DNA of 39,016 bases from Flavobacteriales bacterium (GTDB lineage Bacteria > Bacteroidota > Bacteroidia > Flavobacteriales_F > PHOS-HE28): NCBI GenBank assembly GCA_018057455.1, contig JAGPDT010000028.1, positions 1 to 39,016 on the forward strand, read 5' to 3'. The stretch's first letter is position 1. Each line of letters opens with the position of its first letter. A program made the position numbers and the translations under genes. The notes under the pieces are model-generated. The model was not told the origin of the DNA. It did no database searches and saw nothing but the letters and a program-made list of their open reading frames with translations. Below, in pieces: positions 2,189-17,272 of this stretch.

Positions 2189-2309
2189 GTTGTTGGTTGT
2201 CAGTTGCTAGTTCGCAGGGGTGCAACTGGCCAAGTACTGCGGACTTCACCCTTCGAACCACGAACCACGCCCTCCGAACTACTCCCCACGAACTCCGAAC
2301 CACGAACTA
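2189..2309. repeat. Heptamer repeat array upstream of clpB
   Basis: A degenerate tandem repeat with strict 7-base period fills the sequence directly upstream of clpB. From 2189 there are four GTTGnnn-type units (GTTGTTG, GTTGTCA, GTTGCTA, GTTCGCA). From 2254 to 2309 eight consecutive 7-mers follow, most of them CGAACCA, CGAACTA or CGAACTC, ending six bases before the ATG. The 5' units are partly complementary to the 3' units, so the array could fold on itself. Related arrays occur at 15991-16089, 17272-17352, 17516-17579 and 18157-18205. Confidence 0.85.
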
Positions 2310-2315
2310 CCACCC

Positions 2316-4964
2316 ATGGACCTCAACAAATTCACCATCCGCTCCCAGCAGGCCATCCAACAGGCGCAGACCATTGCCGCCGGCTTGAAAAACCAGCAAG
2401 TGGAAACCGGCCATCTGCTGAAAGGATTGCTGGAAGTGGACAAGGATGTGACGCCCTTCCTGTTGAAAAAGCTCAACGTGAACGTGGCCACGCTGCAACA
2501 GGCGTTGGACCGCATCGTGAGCGGCTACCCGAAAGTGGAGGGCGGCGACATGGTGCTGAGTCGCCAGAGCGGGCAGGTGCTGAACAACGCGCTGGCCTCG
2601 CTGAAGGAATTCGGTGATGAGTTCGCCAGCGTGGAGCACTTGCTGCTGGGCTTGGTGGAAGGCAGCGACAACACGGCGCAACTGCTCAAGGACGGCGGCG
2701 TGACGCGCAAGGACCTCGTGGCGGCCATCAAGGAATTGCGCAAAGGCAGCAAGGTGACCAGCCAAAGCCAGGAAGAGACCTACAACGCGCTGAACAAATA
2801 CGCCAAAAACCTCAACCAGCTCGCCAAGGAAAACAAGCTCGACCCGGTGATCGGGCGCGACGAGGAGATCCGTCGCGTGCTGCAGATCCTCAGCCGCCGC
2901 ACCAAGAACAACCCCATCCTCATCGGCGAACCCGGCGTGGGCAAAACAGCCATCGCTGAAGGCATCGCGCAACGCATCGTGAGCGGCGACGTGCCGGACG
3001 ACCTGAAGAACAAGCAGGTCTTCAGCCTGGACATGGGCGCGCTGATCGCCGGCGCGAAATACAAGGGCGAATTCGAGGAACGCCTGAAGGCCGTGGTGAA
3101 GGAAGTGACCGGCGCGGAAGGCAGCGTGATCCTCTTCATCGACGAGATCCACACCTTGGTGGGCGCGGGCGGCGGCGAGGGCGCCATGGACGCGGCCAAC
3201 ATCCTGAAGCCTGCCCTGGCCCGCGGCGAACTGCGCGCCATCGGTGCCACCACCTTGAACGAATACCAGAAATACTTCGAAAAGGACAAGGCCCTGGAGC
3301 GCCGTTTCCAGAAGGTGATGATCGAGGAGCCTTCACGCGAGGACGCCATCAGCATCCTGCGCGGGCTGAAGGAAAAGTACGAGAGCCATCACAAGGTGCT
3401 GATCAAGGACGCCGCCATCATCGCCGCCGTGGAACTCAGCACGCGCTACATCAGCGACCGCCAACTGCCGGACAAGGCCATCGACCTCATCGACGAAGCC
3501 GCCAGCAAGCTGCGCATGGAGATCAACTCCAAGCCCGAGGAACTCGATGAAGTGGACCGCCGCGTGATGCAGCTGGAGATCGAGCGCGAGGCCATCAAGC
3601 GCGAAGGCGACCAAGGCCAACTCGCTGAACTCAACAAAGAACTGGCCGAGCTGGGCGGCAAGCGCGATGTGCTGAAAGCCCGCTGGGAACACGAGCGCGG
3701 GCTGGTGGAAAAGATCCAGGAAGCCAAGGACCGCATGGAACAACTGAAGTTCGATGCCGCCCAGGCCGAGCGCGAAGGCGACTATGCGAAAGTGGCGGAG
3801 ATCCGCTACGGGCGCACCAAGGAGACCGAGGACCAATTGGCCAAGGCCAAGGAGGAACTCGCCCAGGTGCAAACCTCCACCAAGATGATCAAGGAAGAAG
3901 TGGACGTGGACGAGATCGCCGCCGTGGTGAGCCGCTGGACGGGCATCCCCGTTACCCGCATGCTGGAGACCGAACGCATGAAACTGCTGACCCTGGAGGA
4001 CGAGCTGCACAAGCGCGTGGTGGGCCAGGACGAGGCCGTGCGCGCCGTGGCAGACGCCGTGCGCCGCAGCCGCGCGGGCATGGGCGACGAGAAGCGGCCC
4101 ATCGGCTCCTTCATCTTCCTGGGCACCACCGGCGTGGGCAAGACCGAACTCGCCAAGGCCCTCAGCGAAGTGCTCTTCAACGACGAACACGCCATGACGC
4201 GCATCGACATGAGCGAGTACCAGGAACGCCACAGCACCAGCCGCCTGGTGGGCGCGCCTCCGGGCTACATCGGCTACGAGGAAGGCGGCCAGCTCACCGA
4301 GGCCGTGCGCCGAAAACCTTACAGCGTAGTGCTGCTGGACGAGATCGAAAAAGCGCACCCCGACGTGTGGAACATCCTGCTGCAAGTGCTGGACGACGGC
4401 CGCCTCACCGACAACAAGGGCCGCGTGGTGAACTTCAAGAATACCATCATCATCATGACCAGCAACATCGGCTCGGACATCATCCAGGAGAACTACGAGA
4501 AGATCGACGACCGGAACCACGACGAAGTGCTGCGCAAAACCCGCGACCAAGTGATGGACCTGCTGCGCAAGAGCGTGCGCCCCGAGTTCCTCAACCGCAT
4601 CGACGAGGTGATCATGTTCGAGCCGCTGAGCCGCACCGACGTGCGCGAGATCGTGAAGATCCAGCTGGACGCGCTGATGAAGAAGCTCGCCGAGCGCGAC
4701 ATGCTGCTCACCCCCAGCGAGGAACTGGTGGCCCACATCGCGCACACCGGCTACGACCCGCAATTCGGCGCGCGGCCCATCAAGCGCATGATCCAAAAGG
4801 AACTCCTCAACGAGCTCAGCCGCTGGATCATCGAAGGCAAGGTGGAGGCCAACACGCCGATGGTGATCGATGTGTTCGACGGGCAGATCGTGTTCAGGAA
4901 GCCGTTGGAGGAAGAGGGTGCGAAGGGTGAGAAGAAGGGCAAGGGGAAGAAGGTGGAGGTGTGA
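2316..4964 (+). CDS. clpB: ATP-dependent chaperone ClpB
   Basis: This hexameric AAA+ disaggregase works with DnaK/DnaJ/GrpE to pull apart heat-aggregated proteins in the cytoplasm. The start at 2316 ([18 protein letters not shown]) gives 882 residues, the normal length. An upstream in-frame ATG at 2220 would add 32 residues encoded by the heptamer repeat and is rejected. The N-domain covers about 1-145. The first AAA module has Walker [10 protein letters not shown] near 204 and Walker [12 protein letters not shown]. The coiled-coil middle domain spans about 410-525. The second AAA module has Walker [10 protein letters not shown] near 602 and the [14 protein letters not shown] segment. The C-terminal part contains [10 protein letters not shown] and [10 protein letters not shown]. 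No CIRCE or obvious heat-shock promoter could be identified; the immediate 5' region is the heptamer array. The gene appears to be monocistronic. Confidence 0.98.
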
Positions 4965-4989: not shown

Positions 4990-5145
4990 AAGGCCTACGC
5001 ACGGGCCGGGCTGTCCGCTTTAGTTGCCTTGTCCCGGCCTGCAACGCATCGGGCTGCGGGTCCTGCTCGTTCCTCGCAGTATCCTCGCTCCGTGCGTTGC
5101 CGGGCCGGTCCTGCGGCAAGCTGCCGCTGCCATCCCTCACGCGGC
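4990..5145. ncRNA. Structured intergenic element between clpB and the helicase
   Basis: The gap after clpB contains nested inverted repeats. GCAACGC (5041-5047) pairs with GCGTTGC (5094-5100), extended by CCGGCC (5034-5039) with GGCCGG (5103-5108). An inner stem is CTGCG (5054-5058) with CGCAG (5075-5079). A separate tight hairpin is GCGGCA, AGC, TGCCGC (about 5113-5127). The two ends, with GGGCTGTCCGCT on one side and CCATCCCTCACGC on the other, resemble a repeated intergenic element I remember from many Bacteroidota genomes at 3' ends of genes. That link is from memory. Whether it is transcribed is not known; 'ncRNA' is the closest available type. Confidence 0.4.
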
Positions 5146-5166
5146 AGAGGCACGTCCAACCTTGTA

Positions 5167-8100
5167 TCAATATGGTACCAAATGCCCATGGAATTCCACC
5201 AAATAGATATATCCCCGTCCTCTGGCCCTTTGGCCCCATCCATCATAGTAGTGCATGCCATGTTCTTGGTCATAGTTCTGACAATCTTCTGCCGTATATC
5301 GAACAATAGCGCTGACCACAAGCCCTCCATACCGCTGGGCTTGTAATCGGTCGTTCGCCCACGCGGGCATCAGCCTCTCGACCCTTACCTCCCTATGTAC
5401 CAGATAGCTGCCCTCCCCATTGTGCTCGATCGTAAGCTCATCACCCATACTAATTCGACTCCTGATGTGATTGTGGATTGCTTGAAACCTGGCTTCATTT
5501 GCTTTCCATGAAAGTACTGTGTTCACATTTTCAGGAGCCACATACAGGGCTCCACCACCGTTCTCCGCTGGCACATAAGGTTGGCCAGCGTTCAGTGCTC
5601 GCTCGCGACCACCGATATGTCGGACCAAGCGCTGCTTCGCTCTTGAACAAGCCACATAATACAATCGGCGCTCTTCGGCAATGGCCTCCATTTGAAGTCC
5701 ATTCTGATGGTTTCCCATAGGCGCCGCCGTCGTCCCAGGGGGTAATAGCACGCATTGGTACTCCAAGCCCTTTGCCTTATGCATGGTGCTAAGGACCACT
5801 TCCTTCACCGGAGGTCCGGCAAAGTGCTTCCGTAAAAGCTCTTCCAACTGGCCGTCTTCCCTGCGCGTCAGGTCACTTAGGAAATCCTCGAACTCGTTGA
5901 ACCCCGTCGCTTGTGGATACATCTCCCGATAATACCGCCATGCCTTATGGACCTCCTGTACCAAGTCAACATCCCATTGGGGGAATTGCATAGCAAGCAC
6001 GTTCAGTTGTTCATCAACATTCTGTTCGTTCGCCACACACTCCCGGATGGTGTCCAAGACGGCAGCCACCTCCCTTCGCTTCACATAGACGGCCCCACTC
6101 CCCTTTATTCGCAATCGGTATCCATATTCTTCGGCATGTGCTTTTGCTGCACGATATGCCATGTACAGTTCGCGGTTTGATCGAAACAGCAACGCCACTT
6201 GCCGCCATTGGCCCTCTTCCAAGAGCGTCATAAGCGAATCAGCCCAATTTCCACCTTCGATGATCGATACGGAATTGCCGTCGATGTCAGGATTACTCGC
6301 TTGCAACCCCGCGTCCCTGTCGTTCTTGGGAAGTGCTTGTGAAGCCGCATTGATGATGGCCTGTGTGGAGCGATAGTTCACTTTCAAGGACAATCCAATG
6401 GGCGTATATATCTCATTGAACTTCTCGTAATACGGCCCCGGATCGATATTTCCATTGGGGTTGTTCAGCACTCGTTCATACCCGTAGATGCTCTGGTTGG
6501 GGTCGCCTATCACACTCACATACGCAGTACCTGGTGGAGCTACTGCCCGCAACGTGGCCAAACGGAGCGAAGTGATGTCTTGGAACTCATCCACAAAAAC
6601 AAACTCCACATTCAAGTACGTGCCCAATGCCCCACGACCTCGTTCTTGCATAAGCTGCTGAAAACGACCTTGCACTTCTTGCATAGGTACATTCAGGATC
6701 CCATTCTGATTCAATACGGCATACATGAGGCCATGAAAGGTTTGGACCTTGAGCGATCTTGTAAGGCTGTGGTAGCCCAGCTCAGCGAACAATCGCCTCA
6801 AACGCATCTTCAACTCCTCCACCACGGCCCGGTTATACGCCAACACGAGGATCCTACCTGGTGCAACATGTTCCTGCTGGATCAAGCGGGCCACCCGCAG
6901 CACCAGCGTATGGGTCTTACCTGTGCCCGGGCCTGCCTTCACGCTGATGTTGGATCGGATCTCGGCTTTATAGACCGCCTTCTGCTGATCATTCAGCCGA
7001 TTTACTTGATCATCCAATGCCTCCTCCCGAAATATGGCAAGTACAGACTTTGCATCATCCTCCAGATACAGTTCCAGCAGTGCGATGATATCATCGGGTG
7101 AACTGCACCCAAAATATTCCCGGATAAACTCATCCTGCCTGTCCCGGTCCTTGAGCTTGGCGAAAGCCTGCAGCACGATCAGTCTCAGCTTTTTCAACCG
7201 AAAGGCATCGCTGTAGGCCACCCTCACGGCCTCATCCCCCGGCCGCTCACCGATGCGCTCGCTCTCCTTCAACACCGCTTCAATAGCCATGGGCAGCAGT
7301 CCCCCTTGGAACCTGATGTACCCCAGCTTGCGCAATAGCACGAAGCAATGCTCGATCACTTCCAACGGCCGCTCATGCAGGCCCGCCGCGATGATCACCT
7401 GGCCCAGGTCCTTCACCGGGCCTTTCACTTCGTGGAGGGCCGTGAACAAGCGCTGAACATCTGCCGTGGTGCGATCCAGGATCCCGATCACTTCCTTCCT
7501 CCCCTTTCGCAGGGTAATACGTTGGTGGACGGTTGAGCCATCCTCCACGATCACGGAGGCACATGTTGCTGCACCCTCGGACCTCAGCAGGTCAAAGACA
7601 CATTTCAGCCTGGCTGTGCCGCCCTTGACCATTCTCCGCATGTCCCGGATATTGATCAGGTCTTCACCTTCCACGCCCCTTAACCACGCCCGAAATCCGG
7701 GATCGGCATTCTTCAAGGCACCGATGCTCGGCGCGGTCAAATACACCCCGAGATGGGGTTCATCAGCTCCGGCTTCGTTGATGAACCGCTCTATCAACTG
7801 GCTTTGGATGATCTTGTTCCATTCCCCGCCCAGCCATTCATCTTCCGGTTCGATCGCCTCGAATGCATCCCTATTTCTGATCAATTCCCCAGCCATGGCC
7901 CGGACCGCTTGGGCCAGCAGTAGTGCATTGGCCGCCCCAGGTTCACCATGCAGGCGGACCTCGGACCTTGCAAGTTCCGTGAGATCCACCCGCACCTCAT
8001 TTCTGAGCATTAGATGGCTTTGCTTCCGGGCACGGAGAACCAACATGAACAATTCACTCCTGCTCTTGAGGCCGAGCCTGGCCATCAGCAAGGCACCATC

Positions 8101-9027
8101 CATTAAGATGCTCTCCTGGCCATTGCCCCCGGCCTGCTTCGCCTCGCACACCAACCCATGAAGAGCACGGACTTGCTCGTCAAGGATCGTGTTCCCATGT
8201 TCCGAACTGAGCCTTTCATCATTCTCGAACTCGAGCATGGCGGGCACCAAATAGCGCGATCGGATCCGGCCCAAACGCTCCATCCAATAGAGGGCCGTAC
8301 GGTACAACCCGGCAGGTTCTTGATCCCTATCCCTATAGCGGGCGCTGGTGGAAAGTATGTTCAATGGTACCGGAAGGAACTCCGGCGCTTGAGCATCTTC
8401 TTTTCGGAACCGGACGAAGAACCCACTGAAGATCTCGAAGGCATTGAGGATGTCATTCCAACTGATCTGCCCCCGTTGGACCCGGTCCTGTGCCTTACGG
8501 AAGGAATCCTCCGTGGCAAAGCACACCGCCTTGATCCGCTTGCCGTCCTTGAACCCTGCAGCATTCAATGCACGCTGGTCACGCCCGGCCCGCCCTACTT
8601 CTTGCAAGTAATCCTCGAATGTGCTGGAAGGCCCCAAATGATACACGAAATGGATGTTCGGTATGTCCATCCCCATGCCGAACGCCTTGGTGGCAAAAAG
8701 AACGAGGATCTCTCCTTTTTTGAACCGGTCCACGAGCGATGCCCTTGAGTCGGATTCCAACCCCGCATGGAAATAGGCCGTCCGCCCATGAAACTGTTCG
8801 TTATCCGCGAAAAGATCGTTCAAGGCAGCGGCACCCTCTTCGGTTGCCCTCCGGCTGTGGCAGAATACAATGGCGCGGCTTCGCGTCGGATCCATACCTT
8901 CAGCCAAGGCATCATGGATCGGCTGAAGCGCTTGGTCCGGGTCCAGGTCAACAAATTCAAGCTCAATGTGGTCCCTCACGGGATTGAGCTCGCCATACTT
9001 GTCCAAGGACAGAAACTCAGAGGGCAT
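5167..9027 (-). CDS. C-terminal half of exonuclease-RecQ-SF1 enzyme: RecQ RecA2 lobe plus UvrD-type helicase
   Basis: This is the downstream part of a large helicase. The N-terminus (numbering from an upstream in-frame codon at 9054; subtract 9 for the ATG start) is the second RecA lobe of a RecQ-type SF2 helicase: AIVFCHSRRATEEG, FHAGLES, VLFATKAFGMGMDIP (about 118-132) and motif VI QEVGRAGRDQ (151-160). No RecQ zinc-finger cysteine cluster follows. A region of about 500 residues without recognised motifs comes next. Then there is a complete UvrD/Rep-type SF1 helicase: Walker A KAGPGTGKTHTL (706-717), VDEFQDIT (821-828), GDPNQSIYGY, NYRSTQAI, STMHKAKGLEYQ (1089-1100) and RRLYYVACSRAKQR (1129-1142). 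The C-terminal 115 residues are unassigned. The ATG at 9027 overlaps the stop of the upstream gene by 11 bases (ATGCCCTCTGA), so translation may be coupled, or the two frames may be one gene broken by a single-base insertion. Confidence 0.85.
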   Translation of the reverse strand: MPSEFLSLDKYGELNPVRDHIELEFVDLDPDQALQPIHDALAEGMDPTRSRAIVFCHSRRATEEGAAALNDLFADNEQFHGRTAYFHAGLESDSRASLVDRFKKGEILVLFATKAFGMGMDIPNIHFVYHLGPSSTFEDYLQEVGRAGRDQRALNAAGFKDGKRIKAVCFATEDSFRKAQDRVQRGQISWNDILNAFEIFSGFFVRFRKEDAQAPEFLPVPLNILSTSARYRDRDQEPAGLYRTALYWMERLGRIRSRYLVPAMLEFENDERLSSEHGNTILDEQVRALHGLVCEAKQAGGNGQESILMDGALLMARLGLKSRSELFMLVLRARKQSHLMLRNEVRVDLTELARSEVRLHGEPGAANALLLAQAVRAMAGELIRNRDAFEAIEPEDEWLGGEWNKIIQSQLIERFINEAGADEPHLGVYLTAPSIGALKNADPGFRAWLRGVEGEDLINIRDMRRMVKGGTARLKCVFDLLRSEGAATCASVIVEDGSTVHQRITLRKGRKEVIGILDRTTADVQRLFTALHEVKGPVKDLGQVIIAAGLHERPLEVIEHCFVLLRKLGYIRFQGGLLPMAIEAVLKESERIGERPGDEAVRVAYSDAFRLKKLRLIVLQAFAKLKDRDRQDEFIREYFGCSSPDDIIALLELYLEDDAKSVLAIFREEALDDQVNRLNDQQKAVYKAEIRSNISVKAGPGTGKTHTLVLRVARLIQQEHVAPGRILVLAYNRAVVEELKMRLRRLFAELGYHSLTRSLKVQTFHGLMYAVLNQNGILNVPMQEVQGRFQQLMQERGRGALGTYLNVEFVFVDEFQDITSLRLATLRAVAPPGTAYVSVIGDPNQSIYGYERVLNNPNGNIDPGPYYEKFNEIYTPIGLSLKVNYRSTQAIINAASQALPKNDRDAGLQASNPDIDGNSVSIIEGGNWADSLMTLLEEGQWRQVALLFRSNRELYMAYRAAKAHAEEYGYRLRIKGSGAVYVKRREVAAVLDTIRECVANEQNVDEQLNVLAMQFPQWDVDLVQEVHKAWRYYREMYPQATGFNEFEDFLSDLTRREDGQLEELLRKHFAGPPVKEVVLSTMHKAKGLEYQCVLLPPGTTAAPMGNHQNGLQMEAIAEERRLYYVACSRAKQRLVRHIGGRERALNAGQPYVPAENGGGALYVAPENVNTVLSWKANEARFQAIHNHIRSRISMGDELTIEHNGEGSYLVHREVRVERLMPAWANDRLQAQRYGGLVVSAIVRYTAEDCQNYDQEHGMHYYDGWGQRARGRGYIYLVEFHGHLVPY

Positions 9028-12000
9028 AGAGGATGCGTTGCAAGTCAAGTTCAACCTGTTTGGTTATGGTTGCCGATAGCAGAAGGATGGGGAACGGAAT
9101 TTGAGCTGCGCTACGCAACTGTGAACAACAACGCGCCCCGTGGACGTAGTCCGGGCGGAACTCATTTCCCCACTGCGATATGCAGTGGGCTTCGTCAAAC
9201 ACAAGGTACTCGAGCCGGCCGTCACGCCTTATCCGCTCTTCCAACGACCGTAGGAAGCTTCGTGCGCGAAACCGTTCAGGAGCCACGAATACCATGCGCA
9301 GTTCCCCTCCGGCCATTCGCCGGTAGATGTCCTGCACCTCCATGCTCCCCTTGTCGCTATTGACGCATTCCACGCTGTTCCAGAAACCAAGCTGATGGAG
9401 CCCAAGGACATGGTCATCCATGAGTGCCTTAAGTGGCGTTACCACCACCGTCAATCTCCCTGTGGTATTGGACTTGAACAAAGCCGGGCCTTGGAAAAGC
9501 ACGGATTTGCCGGTACCAGTGGGAAGCGTGACAAGCACATCGCGGTCTCCGGGAAGGATCACGCGCAGGTAATCCAATTGGGCCTTGCGGAAAGTGCCAT
9601 CCCCACGGTCCCGGAGGAACAATGTTCCGATCCGGGCAATTTCTTCCTCCGTCTCCGCTGGTGCCATTGGCCCAACATCCTGACGAGGTGCATGGAACAG
9701 CGCACCACAAACGTTGGCCACCGAATCACACCGCTGCCTATTGCCTGCGACTGGGTTAATGGGGCTTGCCGAGCGCATGCCACACGTGTCACGACCAGCA
9801 CGCGGATCCAACATGATAAGGATGTTCCTCGGATGGTTTTCAAGGATCCGGCCTCGCATGAGCCTATAGTAGGGTTCCAGCCGCCGGATCGCACCCATCG
9901 ATGAAAATCGTTGGGCACTTTCGGCTTCATCCGCTCCAGGTTCACCGTTCAGTTCATCCTCGCCGTCCCCGATATTGGCCAACGCCGCATCTTCTTCATC
10001 AACATCATCCAACTCGGCTGGCTCTTCTTCCCGGAGATGATCCCAGCGCTGAGGATGAAGGCTCTCCATCATGAAGGTGCACCCCTTGTCCAAGTTCATG
10101 GCCAACAACCGCTCCATTCCAGCCAGATCCACCACCACAATGCCACGCTCTGCCGCAACCGCCAGTTCCACCTGCCTTCCCAGTGAGGCATCAGGCGATG
10201 GTACAGTATACCCCATGGCCTTCAACGCTTCACGGACCGTGGACAGCTCCTTACTATGCTCCACTACCAAAACCAGCGGATTTGGCCTATCGGCCAAGCC
10301 TCCGATGGCATCAGCCTTCAGGAGGACTTGTGCCCAATATTCGCTCCGGTATAATGTTTCAGGATTGAGGGGAAAAGTATACTGCTCGTCGTAGCGGCCC
10401 ATTACGAATTGACAGCGATCACCTTCCGCTGCATCCCTTGTTGGGATATCAAGCCTTTCGGTCATTTCAACCCCTGGAATGACTGATGGATGGCTGAACC
10501 GTTCAAGCACTTGATAACTGTCGAAACCCGACCGGGTGATCCACTGTTTGTCACCGATCGGGGGGCGGTTCACCAGACCCGAGAACTGGCCTGGTGAAAT
10601 GGACACGGAACTCACCCCGTTCGAAAATCTGGCCCATAGTCCCTGCGCCTGCTCAGCATTCAACTGGTCACTCCGGCACTCGGCCGCGATCCGGTAGGAT
10701 GAGTAGTCCCAATGTTCAGCGGCTACAATGACCACGCCTTCGTGACCATACTCTTCCTCAAGCAATTCCCGATATTCAACAAAATACCACTCGGATACCA
10801 TCAAGCGATCAACCTTCGCTGGCGAAGCGCACAGCTGATCCAATGGGATGAAAGTGTCTATGCGAACCTTGACATAGGGCGAAAGAAATCGGGCAAACGG
10901 AATGCGACCTTGGCGTTCGCATTCGTGCAGGAATCGCATCAGGCAGGTGAAGAGAAAGGAATCCCTATCCCGCATAGGCTTCACACGGTCCTTGTCCAAC
11001 ACATTGGTCAGGGGATCCATCCTTTCGCCACCCGCAAAGCCCAATGCCGGGTCATGGCTGAAATAGCCCCAAAGCGGCTCAGGGCACACCAAAAGCTTAC
11101 CATTCAATGGCGGCAACTCCATTGCAACTGCTCTTCCTGCCTTGAAGAACTTGGCGGCAAAGTCTTCAGGCAGCCTTTCCTGAAAATGCAACAGAGGGTT
11201 TTCCCGGAGGCTGTCCAAAATCGGTACAACTTCTGGCGGAAGGCATGGGCGGATCAAACCATAGGCATCCTTTTCAAGGGCGACCAATCGGGCAAGTTGA
11301 CAGGCAAACAATTCACGCGTGTGTACGACATCGCGTTCCGCAGCATGGTCGGCCTTTAACGCATAGGTCGATGCGAAAGGATCCAACAAGGCTTCGACCT
11401 CCAGTGTGTCCCACACCTTCTCATGCGCCGACTCGGCAAAGCCACCAATATGCGGCAAGTCAAATGCGCGGATATTATGGCCGAGCACGATTTGCGAGCC
11501 ACGGATCACTTCCCTAAGCCGGTCCACTATATCCTTCGTTGGCTGTTTATGGGCGAACATTTCGTTGGCGCTCCAATAAGCCAGCTCCCGGATGGCATGG
11601 TCCGCAGGACTTACCTCCAAATCGAAGCAGCACACCGCGAGCTGCTCCTCCACAGTGTGCCTTACATGAGCTGACCATGCCTTGTAGACCTTTGTGGATA
11701 CCACGGTATGCCCATTCATGAGTGCGGTGTACTGCGCCATACCAAGCTGCTCGATGCAGCGTAGGGCATCATCCACCTTCAGTGCGCTAGCTACCGCAGC
11801 TCTTCGTGCTTCCGGGATGACCGGTATTTTGCCATCTACCCACGCCACAAAGAGTGAACGGTCATCAAGACCGGTATGGAGTGCACCCAAATGGTCCTCA
11901 CTTGCATCAGGATGGTCTTTTAGTTCAGCTACTCGGGCAAGCATCAACTCCCGCGGCATGTCCTTGAACTTGATCTCCGGATTGTGAAGGTCATCCAGAT

Positions 12001-12778
12001 CAAACAAGTGCATCGGCAGCTTTCCATTCAGCCACATCAGCGCTCGGCTTGAGGCTTCAGGTATCAAGAACTTGCAGAACTCCTTATCCATCAGGTCATC
12101 GCCAGCCGTATAGAACCCAAACAATACCCCAGCACGAACAGCTGCGTCCAGTTCAGGTGACCATGTTTCTACTACAGCTGTTAAGCTGGACCTAATCATT
12201 TCGACCGGCACTTTAAACTTCCTTATTACACGAAGGAGGTCCGGTAGAAGCCGGTTGGTAGCTACTGAAGGATTGATAAGGCTTCTTAGGTACAGTGCGT
12301 AGAACTGAGCCTTCCACTGTTCAATATCCTGGATATCCGTAATTTCCTGGACCTCAAAGCGCCGATTCTTGATTTTGAGCGTACAGGTCTTGAACCCTCC
12401 TCCATAATTCGTTGGCCCTGATTGGTCAATCCAAATGGACTGCTCCTCATGCCCAATATCCGGTGGCACTACTGTAATTCTCGCACCCTCCATTGTATGG
12501 CAGAGCAATTCGGTCCTTGACAAGGAATATTCCCTGCGCTTCAAATCAGCGCCTACTTCAAAAAGCTGCCCCCAACTTATGCGACTTTCAGGTGGCAATT
12601 GTATGTATGGATCATTTCTTTGCCAGTTAACAATCACGTTCCAATCAGTATTATTGATATTTTCGATCAGCTTAATATAGGCGCGATTGCCTTGCTCCGG
12701 TACGGCAATTGCCACCCCAAGTCGTACCAACCCAGCATTTCTGGCCCCCTTTTCAAACCCTTGTAATGGATCGAGCAT
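9017..12778 (-). CDS. N-terminal half of exonuclease-RecQ-SF1 enzyme: DEDDh exonuclease plus RecQ RecA1 lobe
   Basis: This 1,253-residue protein is preceded immediately by an in-frame TAG, so it starts at or after 12778. Residues 1-370 are not recognised. A DEDDh 3'-5' exonuclease domain follows: Exo I in AVCCFDLEVS (D386, E388), Exo II in VLGHNIRAFDLP (N435, D440) and Exo III in KADHAAERDVV (H478, D483). Residues about 500-1000 match no family with certainty. The segment LVLVVEHSKELSTVREAL...GIVVVDLAGMERLL and PYYRLMRGRILEN...ILIMLDPRA looks like a degenerate DinG/XPD-type C-terminal helicase lobe, interrupted by an acidic linker (about 917-955). Residues 1040-1253 are the first RecQ lobe: LPTGTGKSVLF (K1091), TPLKALMDDH, VFDEAHCISQWGNEFRPDY (DEAH 1195-1198) and LLLSATITKQ. 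The second lobe continues in the overlapping next gene. The 5' part looks more AT-rich than the flanking genes, which suggests acquisition by transfer. Confidence 0.85.
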   Translation of the reverse strand: MLDPLQGFEKGARNAGLVRLGVAIAVPEQGNRAYIKLIENINNTDWNVIVNWQRNDPYIQLPPESRISWGQLFEVGADLKRREYSLSRTELLCHTMEGARITVVPPDIGHEEQSIWIDQSGPTNYGGGFKTCTLKIKNRRFEVQEITDIQDIEQWKAQFYALYLRSLINPSVATNRLLPDLLRVIRKFKVPVEMIRSSLTAVVETWSPELDAAVRAGVLFGFYTAGDDLMDKEFCKFLIPEASSRALMWLNGKLPMHLFDLDDLHNPEIKFKDMPRELMLARVAELKDHPDASEDHLGALHTGLDDRSLFVAWVDGKIPVIPEARRAAVASALKVDDALRCIEQLGMAQYTALMNGHTVVSTKVYKAWSAHVRHTVEEQLAVCCFDLEVSPADHAIRELAYWSANEMFAHKQPTKDIVDRLREVIRGSQIVLGHNIRAFDLPHIGGFAESAHEKVWDTLEVEALLDPFASTYALKADHAAERDVVHTRELFACQLARLVALEKDAYGLIRPCLPPEVVPILDSLRENPLLHFQERLPEDFAAKFFKAGRAVAMELPPLNGKLLVCPEPLWGYFSHDPALGFAGGERMDPLTNVLDKDRVKPMRDRDSFLFTCLMRFLHECERQGRIPFARFLSPYVKVRIDTFIPLDQLCASPAKVDRLMVSEWYFVEYRELLEEEYGHEGVVIVAAEHWDYSSYRIAAECRSDQLNAEQAQGLWARFSNGVSSVSISPGQFSGLVNRPPIGDKQWITRSGFDSYQVLERFSHPSVIPGVEMTERLDIPTRDAAEGDRCQFVMGRYDEQYTFPLNPETLYRSEYWAQVLLKADAIGGLADRPNPLVLVVEHSKELSTVREALKAMGYTVPSPDASLGRQVELAVAAERGIVVVDLAGMERLLAMNLDKGCTFMMESLHPQRWDHLREEEPAELDDVDEEDAALANIGDGEDELNGEPGADEAESAQRFSSMGAIRRLEPYYRLMRGRILENHPRNILIMLDPRAGRDTCGMRSASPINPVAGNRQRCDSVANVCGALFHAPRQDVGPMAPAETEEEIARIGTLFLRDRGDGTFRKAQLDYLRVILPGDRDVLVTLPTGTGKSVLFQGPALFKSNTTGRLTVVVTPLKALMDDHVLGLHQLGFWNSVECVNSDKGSMEVQDIYRRMAGGELRMVFVAPERFRARSFLRSLEERIRRDGRLEYLVFDEAHCISQWGNEFRPDYVHGARCCSQLRSAAQIPFPILLLSATITKQVELDLQRILYAL

Positions 12779-13070
12779 CTACAGAGTGGTCAATACAGCC
12801 GTATCGTCATTGTGGCAAAGCTGGCATTCAACTTGGATAATCGCAATAGTATGCCAAAGATGCCCCGGCTGTGAACCATCCGAACAGAAAGCAACATCCA
12901 GTCACTCACGGGATCAACCCAGCACCCGGTTATGATGCACCTTCGGAAATGTGGCGTAGCGCGGAACGGTAGTTTCGCGGCACGCAGGTCGGACGGGAAG
13001 CCCCGCCACTTCAACCACACCCTGCGAACCTCGAACTGCATTTGACTATTGGCTGCCTTTGGGCAAGCTC

Positions 13071-13304
13071 ATGAAAGCCATGGCCGATACCAAGGACAAG
13101 ATCACCCTCACCGTCCGTCGGGATATTGCTCGCAAGGCGCGCTCCCTGAGCCGCTCGCGGAAACAGTCCGCTTCGCACATGTTCGAGGAATGGGTGCAGC
13201 GCATGTCGGATACGGAGGATCCCATGCTCGCCCTCGCAGGCCTGTGGAAGGACCGTGACATCACGCTTGAAGAGTTCCGCCGGAAGGCATGGACGCGGTC
13301 CTGA
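13071..13304 (+). CDS. Antitoxin-like protein of a VapBC-type module
   Basis: A small basic protein of 77 residues. KDKITLTVRRDIARKARSLS resembles the ribbon-helix-helix DNA-binding N-terminus of VapB/DUF6364-type antitoxins. The C-terminal part, DPMLALAGLWKDRDITLEEF, has the toxin-wrapping character seen in this group. It overlaps by 16 bases the start of a PIN-toxin remnant, the usual antitoxin-toxin coupling. Upstream in-frame TTG (13059) and the downstream ATG (13080) are alternative starts. Two copies of a CGAACnn heptamer (13025-13038) lie a little upstream, a possible weak member of the heptamer repeat family. With its partner broken, the antitoxin may be orphaned. The remaining 292 bases up to the helicase gene show nothing else recognisable. 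Confidence 0.7.
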   Translation: MKAMADTKDKITLTVRRDIARKARSLSRSRKQSASHMFEEWVQRMSDTEDPMLALAGLWKDRDITLEEFRRKAWTRS

Positions 13305-13410
13305 TCGATTCCTCGGTCGTCATTTGAGTACTGCGGGACCATGCCAATGCCATGGATCTGGCGCTCGTGCCAGCCCATGCATTCAACAACGGACATTCAC
13401 CGCACCTTAA
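13289..13410 (+). pseudogene. Truncated VapC-type PIN toxin
   Basis: The ATG at 13289 starts MDAVLIDSSVVI, the first strand of a PIN domain with its catalytic Asp, but a TGA follows at 13325-13327. Beyond it the same frame reads VLRDHANAMDLALVPAHAFNN, still toxin-like, after which the sequence runs into the promoter of the next gene. A PIN toxin should be about 130 residues, so most of the protein is missing. The 16-base overlap with the upstream antitoxin supports its identity as the toxin of that pair. It should be inactive. Confidence 0.6.
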
Positions 13411-13430
13411 CCCCAATGGGCCCGATTTCC

Positions 13431-13438
13431 TATCTTTG
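13431..13438 (+). promoter_or_regulatory. Bacteroidota-type -7 box (TATCTTTG) before gene 13443
   Basis: TATCTTTG matches the TAnnTTTG consensus of Bacteroidota primary sigma promoters. It ends only four bases before the ATG at 13443, so transcription would begin at or within the start codon, suggesting a leaderless message. A matching -33 TTTG is not obvious. Confidence 0.45.
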
Positions 13439-13442
13439 AAAC

Positions 13443-13757
13443 ATGCCAGGCTCCACGCAAAACGACAGCATCCGGCTTGAATTGATCGCTTGGATCCAAC
13501 GCTTGGATGACCAAGGGCTGTTGAAGGCGTTGCAGGGCCTGAAGAAGCTCGTTCAGCGCTCGGCGGACAAACCGGGCCTGACGTCCAAGGAAAGAGAAAC
13601 CATTGCTGCTGAACTGGGATCGATCGGCCATTCGAGCGAAGAACGTGACTTCTGGAAAGCGTTGGCCGCCCACGGGCTGCAGCGCGCGTACAGCGCGGAG
13701 GAACCGGACATCTCCGGCATCACCCTGCTGGAGCCAAATCCAACGTACAAGCCGTGA
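13443..13757 (+). CDS. Hypothetical protein, putative antitoxin partner of the MazF-like gene
   Basis: A protein of 104 residues that I do not recognise as a family. It is mostly helical by composition (LELIAWIQRLDDQGLLKALQ, KKLVQRSADKPGLTSKERET) and ends LLEPNPTYKP. The last codons overlap by four bases (GTGA) with the GTG that would begin the MazF/PemK-like frame, so the two are translationally coupled as in a toxin-antitoxin operon. The position and size fit an antitoxin. The sequence itself lacks a clear DNA-binding motif, so the role is inferred from context only. Confidence 0.6.
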   Translation: MPGSTQNDSIRLELIAWIQRLDDQGLLKALQGLKKLVQRSADKPGLTSKERETIAAELGSIGHSSEERDFWKALAAHGLQRAYSAEEPDISGITLLEPNPTYKP

Positions 13758-13782
13758 AGCCAGGCGATGTGGTGCGGGTGCC

Positions 13783-14094
13783 ATGCCGCAGGCGGATGGC
13801 GCACGCAAGGCCCGGCCTGCGGTTCTCCTGTGCAGTTTTCCTCCCTTTGGCGACTGGCTGGTACTTGGCATTAGCAGCAGTATCGGCTTGGCGGTTCCGG
13901 GCTTGGACCTGGTGATCCATGAGGAGCATCCTTCCTATACCCTGTCCCGGTTGGACTTTACCGGTGTGGTCCGGCTCGGGCACGCAAATGTGGTTCCTGT
14001 TGAATGGATTGAAGGCATCATCGGGCGGGTGGATCCCGAAACGCTGCAAACATTGACGGAGCGATTTGTGAAGCAAGTGTTGAAAGGGGAATAG
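13783..14094 (+). CDS. MazF/PemK-family toxin-like protein, N-terminus possibly frameshifted
   Basis: From the ATG at 13783 the protein is 103 residues: MPQADGARKARPAVLLC, then FPPFGDWLVLGISS and LDFTGVVRLGHANVVPVEW. The DG..KARPAVLL and RLGHANVV segments match the core of MazF/PemK endoribonucleases, which cut mRNA at short sites. The true N-terminus of such toxins is a KPGDVV strand, and exactly that (VKPGDVVRVP) is encoded just upstream from the GTG at 13754, but in another frame. A single missing base near 13780 would restore the whole toxin. So this is either a recently frameshifted toxin or a sequencing error; the shortened form would lack its first beta strand and is probably inactive. 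It is coupled to the gene ending at 13757. Confidence 0.65.
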   Translation: MPQADGARKARPAVLLCSFPPFGDWLVLGISSSIGLAVPGLDLVIHEEHPSYTLSRLDFTGVVRLGHANVVPVEWIEGIIGRVDPETLQTLTERFVKQVLKGE

Positions 14095-14155
14095 GCACTG
14101 CCGATCCTCCGCAGAAGTCAGCAGACATCAAGGAGCATTGAAGACAGAATTCACC

Positions 14156-14923
14156 ATGACCTTCCAATACGCCAGCGACCTGCACCTGGAATTTTCCGAG
14201 AACCGGGAATGGCTGCACACGCACCCCTTGGAACCCGGTGCAGACGTGCTGTTACTGGCCGGTGATGTGCTGCCCCTGCACCTGGTGCCCAAGCACCGCA
14301 AGTTGCTGAACGAAATCGCGCAGCCTTTCAAAGAGGTGATCTGGATCCCCGGCAACCACGAATACTACGGCAACAGCATCCCTCCCGAAGGGGACGACCT
14401 GGACATGCAACCCTTGGCCAAGTGGCGCATCGTGAACAACCGTTCCGTGCAAATTGGCACTGCACGCATCCTCTGCACCACGCTGTGGACGGCCATCAGC
14501 CAACTGAACGAAACACACATGCGCCACAGCATGAACGACTACCTGCAGATCCGCCACGGCGGAAAACTGCTGCTGCCCGCGCACACCACCCGCCTGCATC
14601 AGCGCAGCTTAGCCTGGCTGAAAGCCGAACTGGCCAAGCCCTTCGCCGGCCCCACCGTGGTGATGACCCACCACGTGCCCACCATGATGCACTATCCCGA
14701 ACGCTTCAAGGGCGATGCCCTGAACGAGGCCTTCGCCGTGGAACTGCACGACCTGATCCACGCCAGCGATATCCACACCTGGATCTACGGGCACCACCAC
14801 CACAACACGCCCGCGTTCACCATCGGCGGCACCTGCATGCGCACCAACCAAGTGGGCTATGTGCAGTACGGGGAGCAGAGGAGCTTTGATCGGGGCGGGT
14901 GCTTTGGGGTGGAAGGGAATTGA
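14156..14923 (+). CDS. Calcineurin-like metallophosphoesterase
   Basis: A predicted cytoplasmic phosphoesterase with a two-metal centre; the substrate is unknown. The protein is 255 residues from the ATG at 14156 (MTFQYASDLHLEF). A TTG six codons upstream is less likely because the conserved DxH motif should lie near the N-terminus. The five metal-binding blocks are all present: DLHLEF, LLLAGDVL, IPGNHEYY, VMTHHVP and YGHHHH. No signal peptide or membrane segment is seen. It sits after the toxin-antitoxin genes and before the REP/RAYT element. The family includes both housekeeping nucleases/phosphatases and accessory genes, so the role cannot be fixed from sequence. Confidence 0.9.
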   Translation: MTFQYASDLHLEFSENREWLHTHPLEPGADVLLLAGDVLPLHLVPKHRKLLNEIAQPFKEVIWIPGNHEYYGNSIPPEGDDLDMQPLAKWRIVNNRSVQIGTARILCTTLWTAISQLNETHMRHSMNDYLQIRHGGKLLLPAHTTRLHQRSLAWLKAELAKPFAGPTVVMTHHVPTMMHYPERFKGDALNEAFAVELHDLIHASDIHTWIYGHHHHNTPAFTIGGTCMRTNQVGYVQYGEQRSFDRGGCFGVEGN

Positions 14924-14955: not shown

Positions 14956-15016
14956 GGGTGCGCCGGACTCCAGTCCGGCAAAAACAAACGCTGGGTAACC
15001 CGAACTCCAGTCCGGT
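14956..15016 (+). repeat. REP elements, copies 1 and 2
   Basis: Two REP units in direct orientation lie in front of the 3' end of the RAYT gene. Each has GGGT, two variable bases, then an 18-bp palindrome. Copy 1 has GGGT at 14956-14959 and the perfect palindrome GCCGGACTCCAGTCCGGC at 14962-14979. Copy 2 has GGGT at 14993-14996 and a degenerate palindrome at 14999-15016. Both are followed by AAAAAC. The layout, a tetranucleotide tag 5' to a hairpin, is what RAYT transposases recognise. Confidence 0.85.
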
Positions 15017-15024
15017 AAAAACAT

Positions 15025-15789
15025 CTACTCCGCCTGCCTTCCCTCACCACCAAACCCAGAAGACCACTGCCAATCTTCTGCCCTGCGTGCCAAACCCGCC
15101 TTCACCGGGTTGTTGTGAATGTAATCCACAACCGTTGCAAAGTGACCATCATCGCGGATGTAGCGGTCGAAGTAGTCGCGGTGCCAAACGGGTGAGCCGG
15201 ACTCCAGTCCGGCCGAAACACCCGGTGGCACCGCCCCCATTGTGTGCACCCTCAAATACGCATTGATTCTTCGCCCCGTGTACTTCTTCCACGAGGCTAC
15301 GATGCTGCTCATCGTCCACCCTTCCGCCGCTTGAAAAAGCACATGCACGTGATTGGGCATTACGCACCATGCAAAAACGTGGTATCGTTTGTCCTGAAAG
15401 TGAAGGAGCGTTTGCTGCACCAAGTGCGCCAGCTCAGGGACCCGCAGCACGCAACTGCCCCTGCCCGCATCCAAGTAGCCGGCGATCCGCTTTTCCTTTT
15501 CCGTATCCCGGAGTGAAGGCGGTACGCTTTTCAGTTCAGCGGCCATTTTCTCCACCAAATGCCTCGGCAGGCTGTCGGCCAAATGAAATGTTACATGCTG
15601 GATCAGGCGCGGGCTTTCCACATGCGGATGGTATCCACGATCCCACCAAACCCGTTCACCGGAATTTCCCACCGCCTTCAAGCCCTTTCCCAACCGCCCA
15701 TACCCCAACCCCTTCCTGGGTCCGCCGGACTCCAGTCCGGCACAACTGCCCGGTCCGCTATTCTCATCCTTTCCTTCCATCATCATCAT
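15025..15789 (-). CDS. REP-associated tyrosine transposase (RAYT, Y1/IS200-like)
   Basis: A single-strand DNA transposase of the HUH superfamily thought to act on REP hairpins. From the first of four consecutive ATGs (15789) the protein is 254 residues. WWDRGYHPHVE and VTFHLADSLP mark the conserved N-terminal strands. The HUH metal site is in MPNHVHVLF (about residues 144-152). Candidate catalytic tyrosines are in WHRDYFDRYIRD (about 203-213), followed by the family signature YIHNNPVKAGL. Two REP palindromes lie inside the reading frame (15196-15213 and 15724-15741), both encoding AGLESG without breaking it. Three more flank the gene. An open frame continues upstream to 16260 but is shadow. 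It may still be active, since the HUH and Tyr regions are intact. Confidence 0.9.
   Translation of the reverse strand: MMMMEGKDENSGPGSCAGLESGGPRKGLGYGRLGKGLKAVGNSGERVWWDRGYHPHVESPRLIQHVTFHLADSLPRHLVEKMAAELKSVPPSLRDTEKEKRIAGYLDAGRGSCVLRVPELAHLVQQTLLHFQDKRYHVFAWCVMPNHVHVLFQAAEGWTMSSIVASWKKYTGRRINAYLRVHTMGAVPPGVSAGLESGSPVWHRDYFDRYIRDDGHFATVVDYIHNNPVKAGLARRAEDWQWSSGFGGEGRQAE
15190..15213 (+). repeat. REP element, copy 3, inside the RAYT gene
   Basis: GGGT (15190-15193), GA, then the perfect 18-bp palindrome at 15196-15213. It lies within the transposase coding region, between the HUH motif and the tyrosine segment, and is read in frame as SAGLESGS. It has the same orientation on the DNA as copies 1, 2 and 4. 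Confidence 0.88.
15718..15741 (+). repeat. REP element, copy 4, in the 5' end of the RAYT gene
   Basis: GGGT (15718-15721), CC, then the perfect palindrome at 15724-15741. It lies near the N-terminal codons of the transposase if translation starts at the ATG run (15780-15789), and is read as CAGLESGG, in the same frame as copy 3. Confidence 0.85.
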
Positions 15790-15848
15790 CCTAAATCGAT
15801 CCAATCCGCATGGCGCAGTATGCCCAATATAGAACACAATGTGTTCCA

Positions 15849-15872
15849 GCCGGACTGAAGTCCGGCACACCC
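15849..15872 (-). repeat. REP element, copy 5, inverted
   Basis: A palindrome at 15849-15866 differs from the others only in the two central bases. Its GGGT tag is on the minus strand at 15869-15872, so this copy is in the opposite orientation and bounds the RAYT gene on its 5' side. Copies 1-2 on one side and copy 5 on the other give the inverted flanks expected for a REP/RAYT unit. Confidence 0.85.
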
Positions 15873-15990
15873 AATGTGCTCTATTCCCAAATGCAAGAAC
15901 CTGGACCTGGTCTGTAAGCTGATCGTGGAGTTCGACCATATGGCGAAGAAGTTCTTTGCGGGGGTGTGAGGGGAAGGATACTTTCTTCGC

Positions 15991-16756: not shown

Positions 16757-17272
16757 ATGGACCGCCTCTCCTTCCTCCGCAACCTCCTTGGCAGCGCCGC
16801 GCTGCTCACCCTGCCCCCGCGCGAGCTCCTCGCCGAGCACCAGCCGGGCCTGCTGGACTGGACCGGGGAATGCGAACTGCTCCACGCCTGGGACGGCTAC
16901 GTGAAAGGCTTCCGCTTCCACGATGGGCCGAAGGTGCTGGCGCAGATCAAGGACGAGGATGAGCTGGACCTGCTGCGCGAGTACGACAACGAACACGACC
17001 CCGATGCCGTGGCCGTGTACTGGCAAGGCCGCAAGCTGGGCTTCTTGCCCATGAACGAGAACCGCACGCTGGCCAACCTGATCGACCATGGCATGAAGCT
17101 TTCCGCGTACGTGATCTACACGCAGCCCGCTGAGGATCCCTGGGTGCAGTGCTTCATCGGCGTGCAGCTGATCGTGCCCTCCAACCCTTCCTTCCAACGC
17201 TACATCGACGACTACTTCGAGCGGCCCGATGCGGGGTACAAGCTGCACAAGCACTACGGGGGTGAGGGCTAG
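16757..17272 (+). CDS. HIRAN domain protein with an export-like N-terminus
   Basis: A protein of 171 residues. HIRAN domains, known from eukaryotic HLTF/Rad5 and from bacterial proteins, bind DNA ends or stalled forks. Here the domain spans about residues 47-140: YVKGFRFHDGPKVL, LREYDNEHDPDAVAVYWQGR and KLGFLPMNENRTLANLID, which are the family's characteristic segments. The N-terminus MDRLSFLRNLLGSAALLTLP looks like a twin-arginine signal peptide in which the second arginine has become leucine, followed by a hydrophobic stretch. If exported, the domain would act outside the cytoplasm, which would be odd for a DNA-binding fold. The flanking regions are accessory, and HIRAN genes often accompany helicases. 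Partner and function are not known. Confidence 0.8.
   Translation: MDRLSFLRNLLGSAALLTLPPRELLAEHQPGLLDWTGECELLHAWDGYVKGFRFHDGPKVLAQIKDEDELDLLREYDNEHDPDAVAVYWQGRKLGFLPMNENRTLANLIDHGMKLSAYVIYTQPAEDPWVQCFIGVQLIVPSNPSFQRYIDDYFERPDAGYKLHKHYGGEG

Follow-up and report, generated by a model that had tools for sequence, protein, structure and literature searches.

A single-copy RAYT locus with private GGGT-tagged REPs in a Flavobacteriales genome

The window analyzed here, a 39,016-nt stretch of contig JAGPDT010000028.1 from a Flavobacteriales bacterium, carries on its minus strand a gene for a REP-associated tyrosine transposase (RAYT, a Y1 HUH nuclease) at positions 15025 to 15789. The product is 254 amino acids long when read from the ATG at 15787 to 15789, the presumed start codon. 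It scored 100.7 bits against the NCBIfam model NF047646 (REP_Tyr_transpos; cut-off, 80 bits) and matched the Y1_Tnp domain (PF01797). Structure 4ER8, a RAYT bound to its REP hairpin, was the best solved relative by sequence and also the top fold match (E = 2e-7) of the predicted model (mean pLDDT, 83). The HUH motif (H-V-H) lies at residues 147 to 149 (15343 to 15351, minus strand), and the presumed catalytic tyrosine, Y223 in VDYIHNNP (15121 to 15123, minus strand), aligned with the DYI tyrosine of Escherichia coli TnpA_REP; H147, H149, and Y223 were all invariant in a 67-sequence alignment. With an HUH motif, a single presumed catalytic tyrosine, and a predicted Y1 fold, the gene is, by family and fold, a RAYT, and it was the only one in the genome to exceed the cut-off.

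Five REP copies lie around and inside this gene. A pattern search for GGGT+NN+GCCGGACTNNAGTCCGGC found four exact copies: REP 1 (14956 to 14979, plus strand; intact, GGGT+GC+palindrome), downstream of the RAYT gene; REP 3 (15190 to 15213, plus strand) and REP 4 (15718 to 15741, plus strand), both within its open reading frame (ORF); and REP 5 (15849 to 15872, minus strand), upstream. The remaining copy, REP 2 (14993 to 15016, plus strand), reads GGGTAACCCGAACTCCAGTCCGGT, three mismatches from the exact pattern. The full pattern GGGTNNGCCGGACTNNAGTCCGGC matched the window four times exactly and once with three mismatches, and zero matches to GGGT+NN+GCCGGACTNNAGTCCGGC were expected by chance (100 shuffles). 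Folded as single-stranded DNA, the four exact copies formed a 7-bp stem (-7.8 to -8.1 kcal/mol), whereas REP 2 has decayed and lost its stable hairpin (-1.3 kcal/mol; z = +0.89). A first-pass annotation of this DNA had described five hairpin REPs, each with GGGT, two variable bases, and an 18-bp palindrome, four pointing one way and one the other, that together enclose the RAYT gene. The tag and its 2-nt spacing were indeed kept in five of five copies, and the pattern search recovered the same orientations, the inverted one being represented by a single copy; the hairpins, however, number four. The outer copies do flank the gene as inverted tagged palindromes (14956 to 14979, plus, versus 15849 to 15872, minus), but REP 3 and REP 4 sit inside the ORF rather than around it, antisense and in frame. 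The stem of each encodes AGLESG, at residues 193 to 198 between the HUH and Tyr motifs for REP 3 (peptide SAGLESGSP) and at residues 17 to 22 near the N terminus for REP 4 (CAGLESGGP). In the predicted model, the REP 4 peptide falls in a segment with pLDDT below 50 (residues 9 to 31), and the REP 3 peptide falls in a stretch of lower confidence (residues 181 to 200; mean pLDDT, ~73) that follows a long helix and precedes the strand starting at W202. A 21-nt inverted repeat (15352 to 15372 and 15808 to 15828; 81% complementary) also pairs the HUH coding region with DNA upstream of the RAYT gene and may be due to chance.

Pattern searches of the whole 3.31-Mb genome (99.4% complete) found zero REP copies outside this locus with up to three mismatches allowed. 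The bare stem, with up to two mismatches, matched elsewhere in the genome no more often than a reversed-pattern control, that is, at chance level, and a search of plasmid DNA with the locus returned zero matches. The high genomic copy number that defines the canonical GTAG REP superfamily is absent here, with five copies, all local. The RAYT locus therefore has private REPs and does not belong to a genome-wide REP family, contrary to what the first-pass annotation had implied. That annotation had proposed a genome-wide count and had treated a lack of other copies as grounds for abandoning the REP/RAYT reading; other copies are lacking, but the reading does not fall with them. With five copies, one of them decayed, the REPs might be what is left of a system that is no longer active.

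The outer neighbors of the locus, by synteny, are clpB (2220 to 4964, plus strand; TIGR03346, 1,281 bits) and, on the other side, a HIRAN-domain gene (16757 to 17272, plus strand; PF08797). The order clpB-RAYT-HIRAN recurred in two other genomes of the genus (G030 and G033), a third (G017) shared the HIRAN side, and a fourth (G042) had clpB and HIRAN without a RAYT gene. The DNA between clpB and HIRAN in G042 was unrelated, so no clean junction and no precise empty site could be recovered there. G030 lacks some 10 kb of the clpB-RAYT interval (5000 to 14920), and its clpB lies ~0.5 kb from the RAYT gene. A neighboring metallophosphoesterase gene was considered as a locus marker, but it lies elsewhere in relatives and is uninformative on the locus. 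On its minus strand, the same interval in the window holds a RecQ-type helicase broken into two ORFs (5167 to 9054 and 9017 to 12778; overlap, ~38 nt), with DEAD ending one ORF and Helicase_C and UvrD beginning the next frame; this may be a frameshift, an assembly error, or a programmed shift. An 84-nt piece at 15893 to 15976 (encoding about NLDLVCKLIVEFDHMAKKFFAGV) recurs at ~73 to 84% identity in several genomes of the genus and once adjoins the RAYT gene of G033. Pairwise dN/dS (Nei-Gojobori) of the RAYT gene was 0.11 to 0.17 against eight relatives and 0.11 to 0.26 over all pairs computed, with synonymous sites near saturation in many pairs; the former values indicate that the gene is under purifying selection. 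Being single copy, under apparent purifying selection, and placed between clpB and HIRAN in relatives, the gene reads as inherited vertically at one locus and not freshly mobile.

Relatives of the RAYT protein were found in 26 of 45 genomes of the same order. In most of the sixteen genus loci inspected, the RAYT gene had its own hairpins; their stems varied (GCCAGACT, GCCACGCT, GCCAAGCT, and GCCGGGCT, among others), and their tags were of the GGG or GGT type. A scan of 44 genomes with a loose REP pattern, in which true palindromes were told apart by eye, placed convincing REPs almost exclusively at RAYT loci, with few elsewhere. Two stray REP-like matches (G016:C85 and G028:C144) were discarded after a repeat search found no repeated REP at either. 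The tag-plus-hairpin grammar of REP/RAYT systems that had been proposed for this locus is also seen in its relatives. The genus also holds a second, more distant RAYT type (L040, L041, and L042) with very long open frames and pairs of GCGGACC..GGTCCGC hairpins on either side. At another locus (L034, 1357 to 1600, plus strand), tandem REPs, mostly spaced every 48 nt, extend upstream into the RAYT frame; the N terminus of that protein may therefore consist of REP-encoded repeats. A 22-nt unit is repeated in tandem, in ~12 copies, at L203 (1654 to 1963).

The individual REPs differ in their distribution among relatives. REP 5 has a counterpart at the same position in G000, G019, G030, and G033 and a slightly decayed one in G017. 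REP 4 is peculiar to this genome and absent from that place in four orthologues; the net difference, 12 nt, preserves the frame. In the HUH-Tyr interval, where REP 3 lies, we counted 26 REP palindromes, of which all were in frame 0 and 25 carried the tag on the noncoding strand (the exception was one of two in L030); many of the 26 are inherited copies rather than independent events. A looser scan added two further HUH-Tyr palindromes in frame 1. Several relatives had no intragenic palindrome. In a tree built without the insert, the genus clade (support, 100/100) and an insert-bearing clade of WM-type RAYTs (100/96) were not sisters, with weak intervening forks, and this loop may have acquired an insert on more than one occasion. 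At loci having both intragenic and outer REPs, the intragenic arm was identical to an outer arm from the same locus in five of six genus loci (2.0 expected; P ~0.009) and in 9 of 15 other loci (5.8 expected; P ~0.003), with expectations drawn from shuffled loci that ignore relatedness. The orthologous intragenic site also showed a compensatory stem change, reading GCCGGACT..AGTCCGGC here and GCCAGACT..AGTCTGGC in L027 and L028.

The GGGT tag is not confined to this genome: it is a local version of a broader GGG[A/T]NC tag that we recovered from many phyla. A scan of named genomes yielded 80 RAYT loci from Gammaproteobacteria, Verrucomicrobiota, Kiritimatiellota, Acidobacteriota, Chlorobiota, and others. 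Recurrent perfect palindromes were gathered around each RAYT gene and oriented by GG at positions -5 and -4 only, and random flanks were treated alike as a control to limit circularity. Beside the hairpin, the REPs of 53 loci in other phyla carried C[T/C]GGGA[A/G]C. Outside the genus, GG stood on exactly one side in 192 of 215 REPs (16% in random flanks), and on that side A occupied -3 in 93% (24% in random flanks) and C occupied -1 in 96% (29%); position -8 was mostly C and -7 mostly T or C. The tag was looser within the genus than elsewhere, with G at -6 in 54%, T at -3 in 57% (26% in random flanks), and C at -1 in 59% (21%). GGGT itself occurred outside the genus at three loci (L117, L158, and L167). 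GT[AG]G was present within 8 nt upstream in 3 of 215 REPs outside the genus and in 9 of 72 in the genus set, which includes the distant RAYT type of L040 to L042; at the locus studied here it is absent, all five copies reading GGGT+NN. Across 20 whole genomes, a GGGANC-tagged stem pattern was counted 115 times in Ectothiorhodospira mobilis, 134 times in Microbulbifer rhizosphaerae, 115 times in a Methylococcaceae genome, 37 and 32 times in two other hosts, and 0 to 12 times in the rest (reversed control, 0 to 4). Since counts reach 115 to 134 in some hosts versus 0 to 12 elsewhere, GGG-tagged REPs can proliferate in certain hosts but remain at their own locus in others, of which the present host is one.

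Residues linked to the reading of the GTAG guide in E. coli TnpA_REP are Q95, E100, H101, and R104, next to a conserved W94 whose role is unclear (PMC6006769). Alignment to 4ER8 placed their counterparts here at H203, D208, R209, and R212, with W202 for W94 (15154 to 15186, minus strand). Because D and R at the E100 and H101 positions occur also in GTAG readers (PMC6006769), the Q95 change is the sole candidate among the matched residues for the altered tag, though tags are not cleanly sorted by it. The residue after W is H here and M in most relatives. We considered whether this residue (Q, M, or H) sets tag base -3, but the correspondence was imperfect: A was found at almost all WM, WH, and WQ loci outside the genus, and the four loci with T at -3 were of the WM (three) and WH (one) types.

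Terminal hairpins on both sides of the gene, a Y1_Tnp domain, and RAYT loci at several distinct places in the genus might suggest that the hairpins are the ends or remnants of an IS200/IS605-like insertion sequence and that the REP-RAYT-REP unit moves as such. We regard this as very improbable. The protein scored 22.8 bits against the IS200 transposase model NF033573, far below the cut-off of 55, whereas the REP_Tyr model was passed, and one copy in the genome exceeds that cut-off. IS200/IS605 ends act on one strand, and the outer hairpins here are inverted, unlike such ends. The orthologous clpB-HIRAN position is moreover retained across ~76% DNA identity. GC-rich hairpins are common between genes, and chance palindromes or terminator-like structures beside an unrelated gene would look superficially alike; shuffling, however, gave an expectation of 0, and the recurrence of tag plus hairpin at homologous RAYT loci in many phyla refutes this explanation, to which we assign next to no probability.

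A different proposal would add to the RAYT reading without replacing it, namely, that the intragenic REPs are kept as functional sites, such as a hairpin with an autoregulatory role in the RAYT mRNA or a site at which the nuclease binds its own gene. The match of intragenic to outer stems above shuffled loci (5/6 versus 2.0 and 9/15 versus 5.8), the compensatory change at the orthologous coding site, and the use of the same loop, nearly always antisense, in two non-sister clades are consistent with such a role. Yet the arm-match statistics ignore phylogeny and reflect few independent events, several relatives do without an intragenic palindrome, and repeated insertion into the sole tolerant loop would give the same pattern; we consider the proposal unlikely, if worth keeping in view. 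A broader claim joins two parts: RAYTs with GGG[A/T]NC REPs would constitute a large branch, spread across phyla, that has a guide code of its own and adds a third tag class to GTAG and CGTC, and the intragenic REP would be held in agreement with the outer REPs by virtue of a function (e.g., in autoregulation or cis-targeting). The two together are put forward only tentatively.

The sequence data document the family, the tag, the confinement of REP copies to the locus, the in-frame position of two of them, the synteny, and the selection; on that evidence, this is quite probably a single-copy RAYT locus (REPtron) of a branch with a GGG[A/T]NC guide, with local REP copies, and the locus is inherited vertically and kept under purifying selection. 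By analogy with the RAYTs of E. coli, Stenotrophomonas, and Marinomonas, the Y1 HUH nuclease would bind the REP as folded single-stranded DNA, reading tag plus hairpin, and would nick near it; we infer binding, nicking, and local copying. The output of the RAYT would stay local in this lineage, with copies only around and inside its own gene, and intragenic copies would survive only where in-frame peptides are tolerated, that is, in the disordered N terminus and the HUH-Tyr loop. The E. coli RAYT, one of three studied in vitro, cuts at CT (PMC8266576), and the CT that often precedes GGG (C at -8, T at -7) could, by analogy, be the cleavage site here.

Earlier work has described the RAYT family and its in-frame REPs located in the HUH-Tyr interval; what is new relative to the literature found is the non-GTAG tag. 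Most REPs have been sorted into GTAG and CGTC classes (PMC3733652). The automatic REP search of an earlier survey required GTAG or GTGG (PMC6006769), so other tags would have escaped it. A GGG[A/T]NC tag was not described anywhere in the freely readable REP/RAYT literature that we searched. RAYT biochemistry to date rests on GTAG-tagged REPs of gammaproteobacteria, and a naturally occurring branch that uses another tag and has M or H as the Q95 counterpart offers a direct test of guide reading and cut choice. A private five-copy locus, set against related hosts with more than 100 copies, likewise offers a natural contrast for what makes REPs spread or stay home.

The nearest parallel among described systems is TnpA_REP subclass 2.4 (Bertels RAYT group 4); its tag is GT[AG]G, its motif is WQ, and it has been reported to carry in-frame REPs in the HUH-Tyr interval (Quentin et al. 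2018, PMC6006769). The present RAYT shares the subclass motifs NH[IFV]H and YIxNNP (here NHVH and YIHNNP), a variable HUH-Tyr insertion of in-frame REPs (here REP 3), a stem foot of three G-C pairs, and an occurrence in Bacteroidetes and scattered phyla. Because its tag is of the GGG type (GGGT here, GGG[A/T]NC more widely) and WQ is replaced by WH here and WM in most relatives, we class it as functioning in the manner of subclass 2.4 rather than as an established member. Cyanobacterial references of that subclass, sought via plasmids, gave three weak matches only. The E. coli TnpA_REP system (subclass 2.2; PDB 4ER8) likewise has a Y1 HUH fold, a 5'-tagged hairpin, and inverted flanking REPs, but there GTAG adjoins a bulged hairpin present in ~600 copies and Q95, E100, and H101 stand where H, D, and R stand here, whereas this locus has a perfect stem, GGGT two bases off, and five copies. 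In the Marinomonas REPtrons Ma and Mb, REPs are also concentrated near the RAYT gene, and in Mb the tag lies 2 nt from a small perfect stem; their tag is GTAG, however, and they have been read as recent arrivals (PMC8266576), whereas the present RAYT appears to have been inherited at one locus. Finally, intragenic REPs and Rickettsia palindromic elements (PMC3733652) resemble REP 3 and REP 4 in being palindromes placed in frame within coding genes, but they occupy unrelated host genes, while here the only gene that carries them is the transposase's own.
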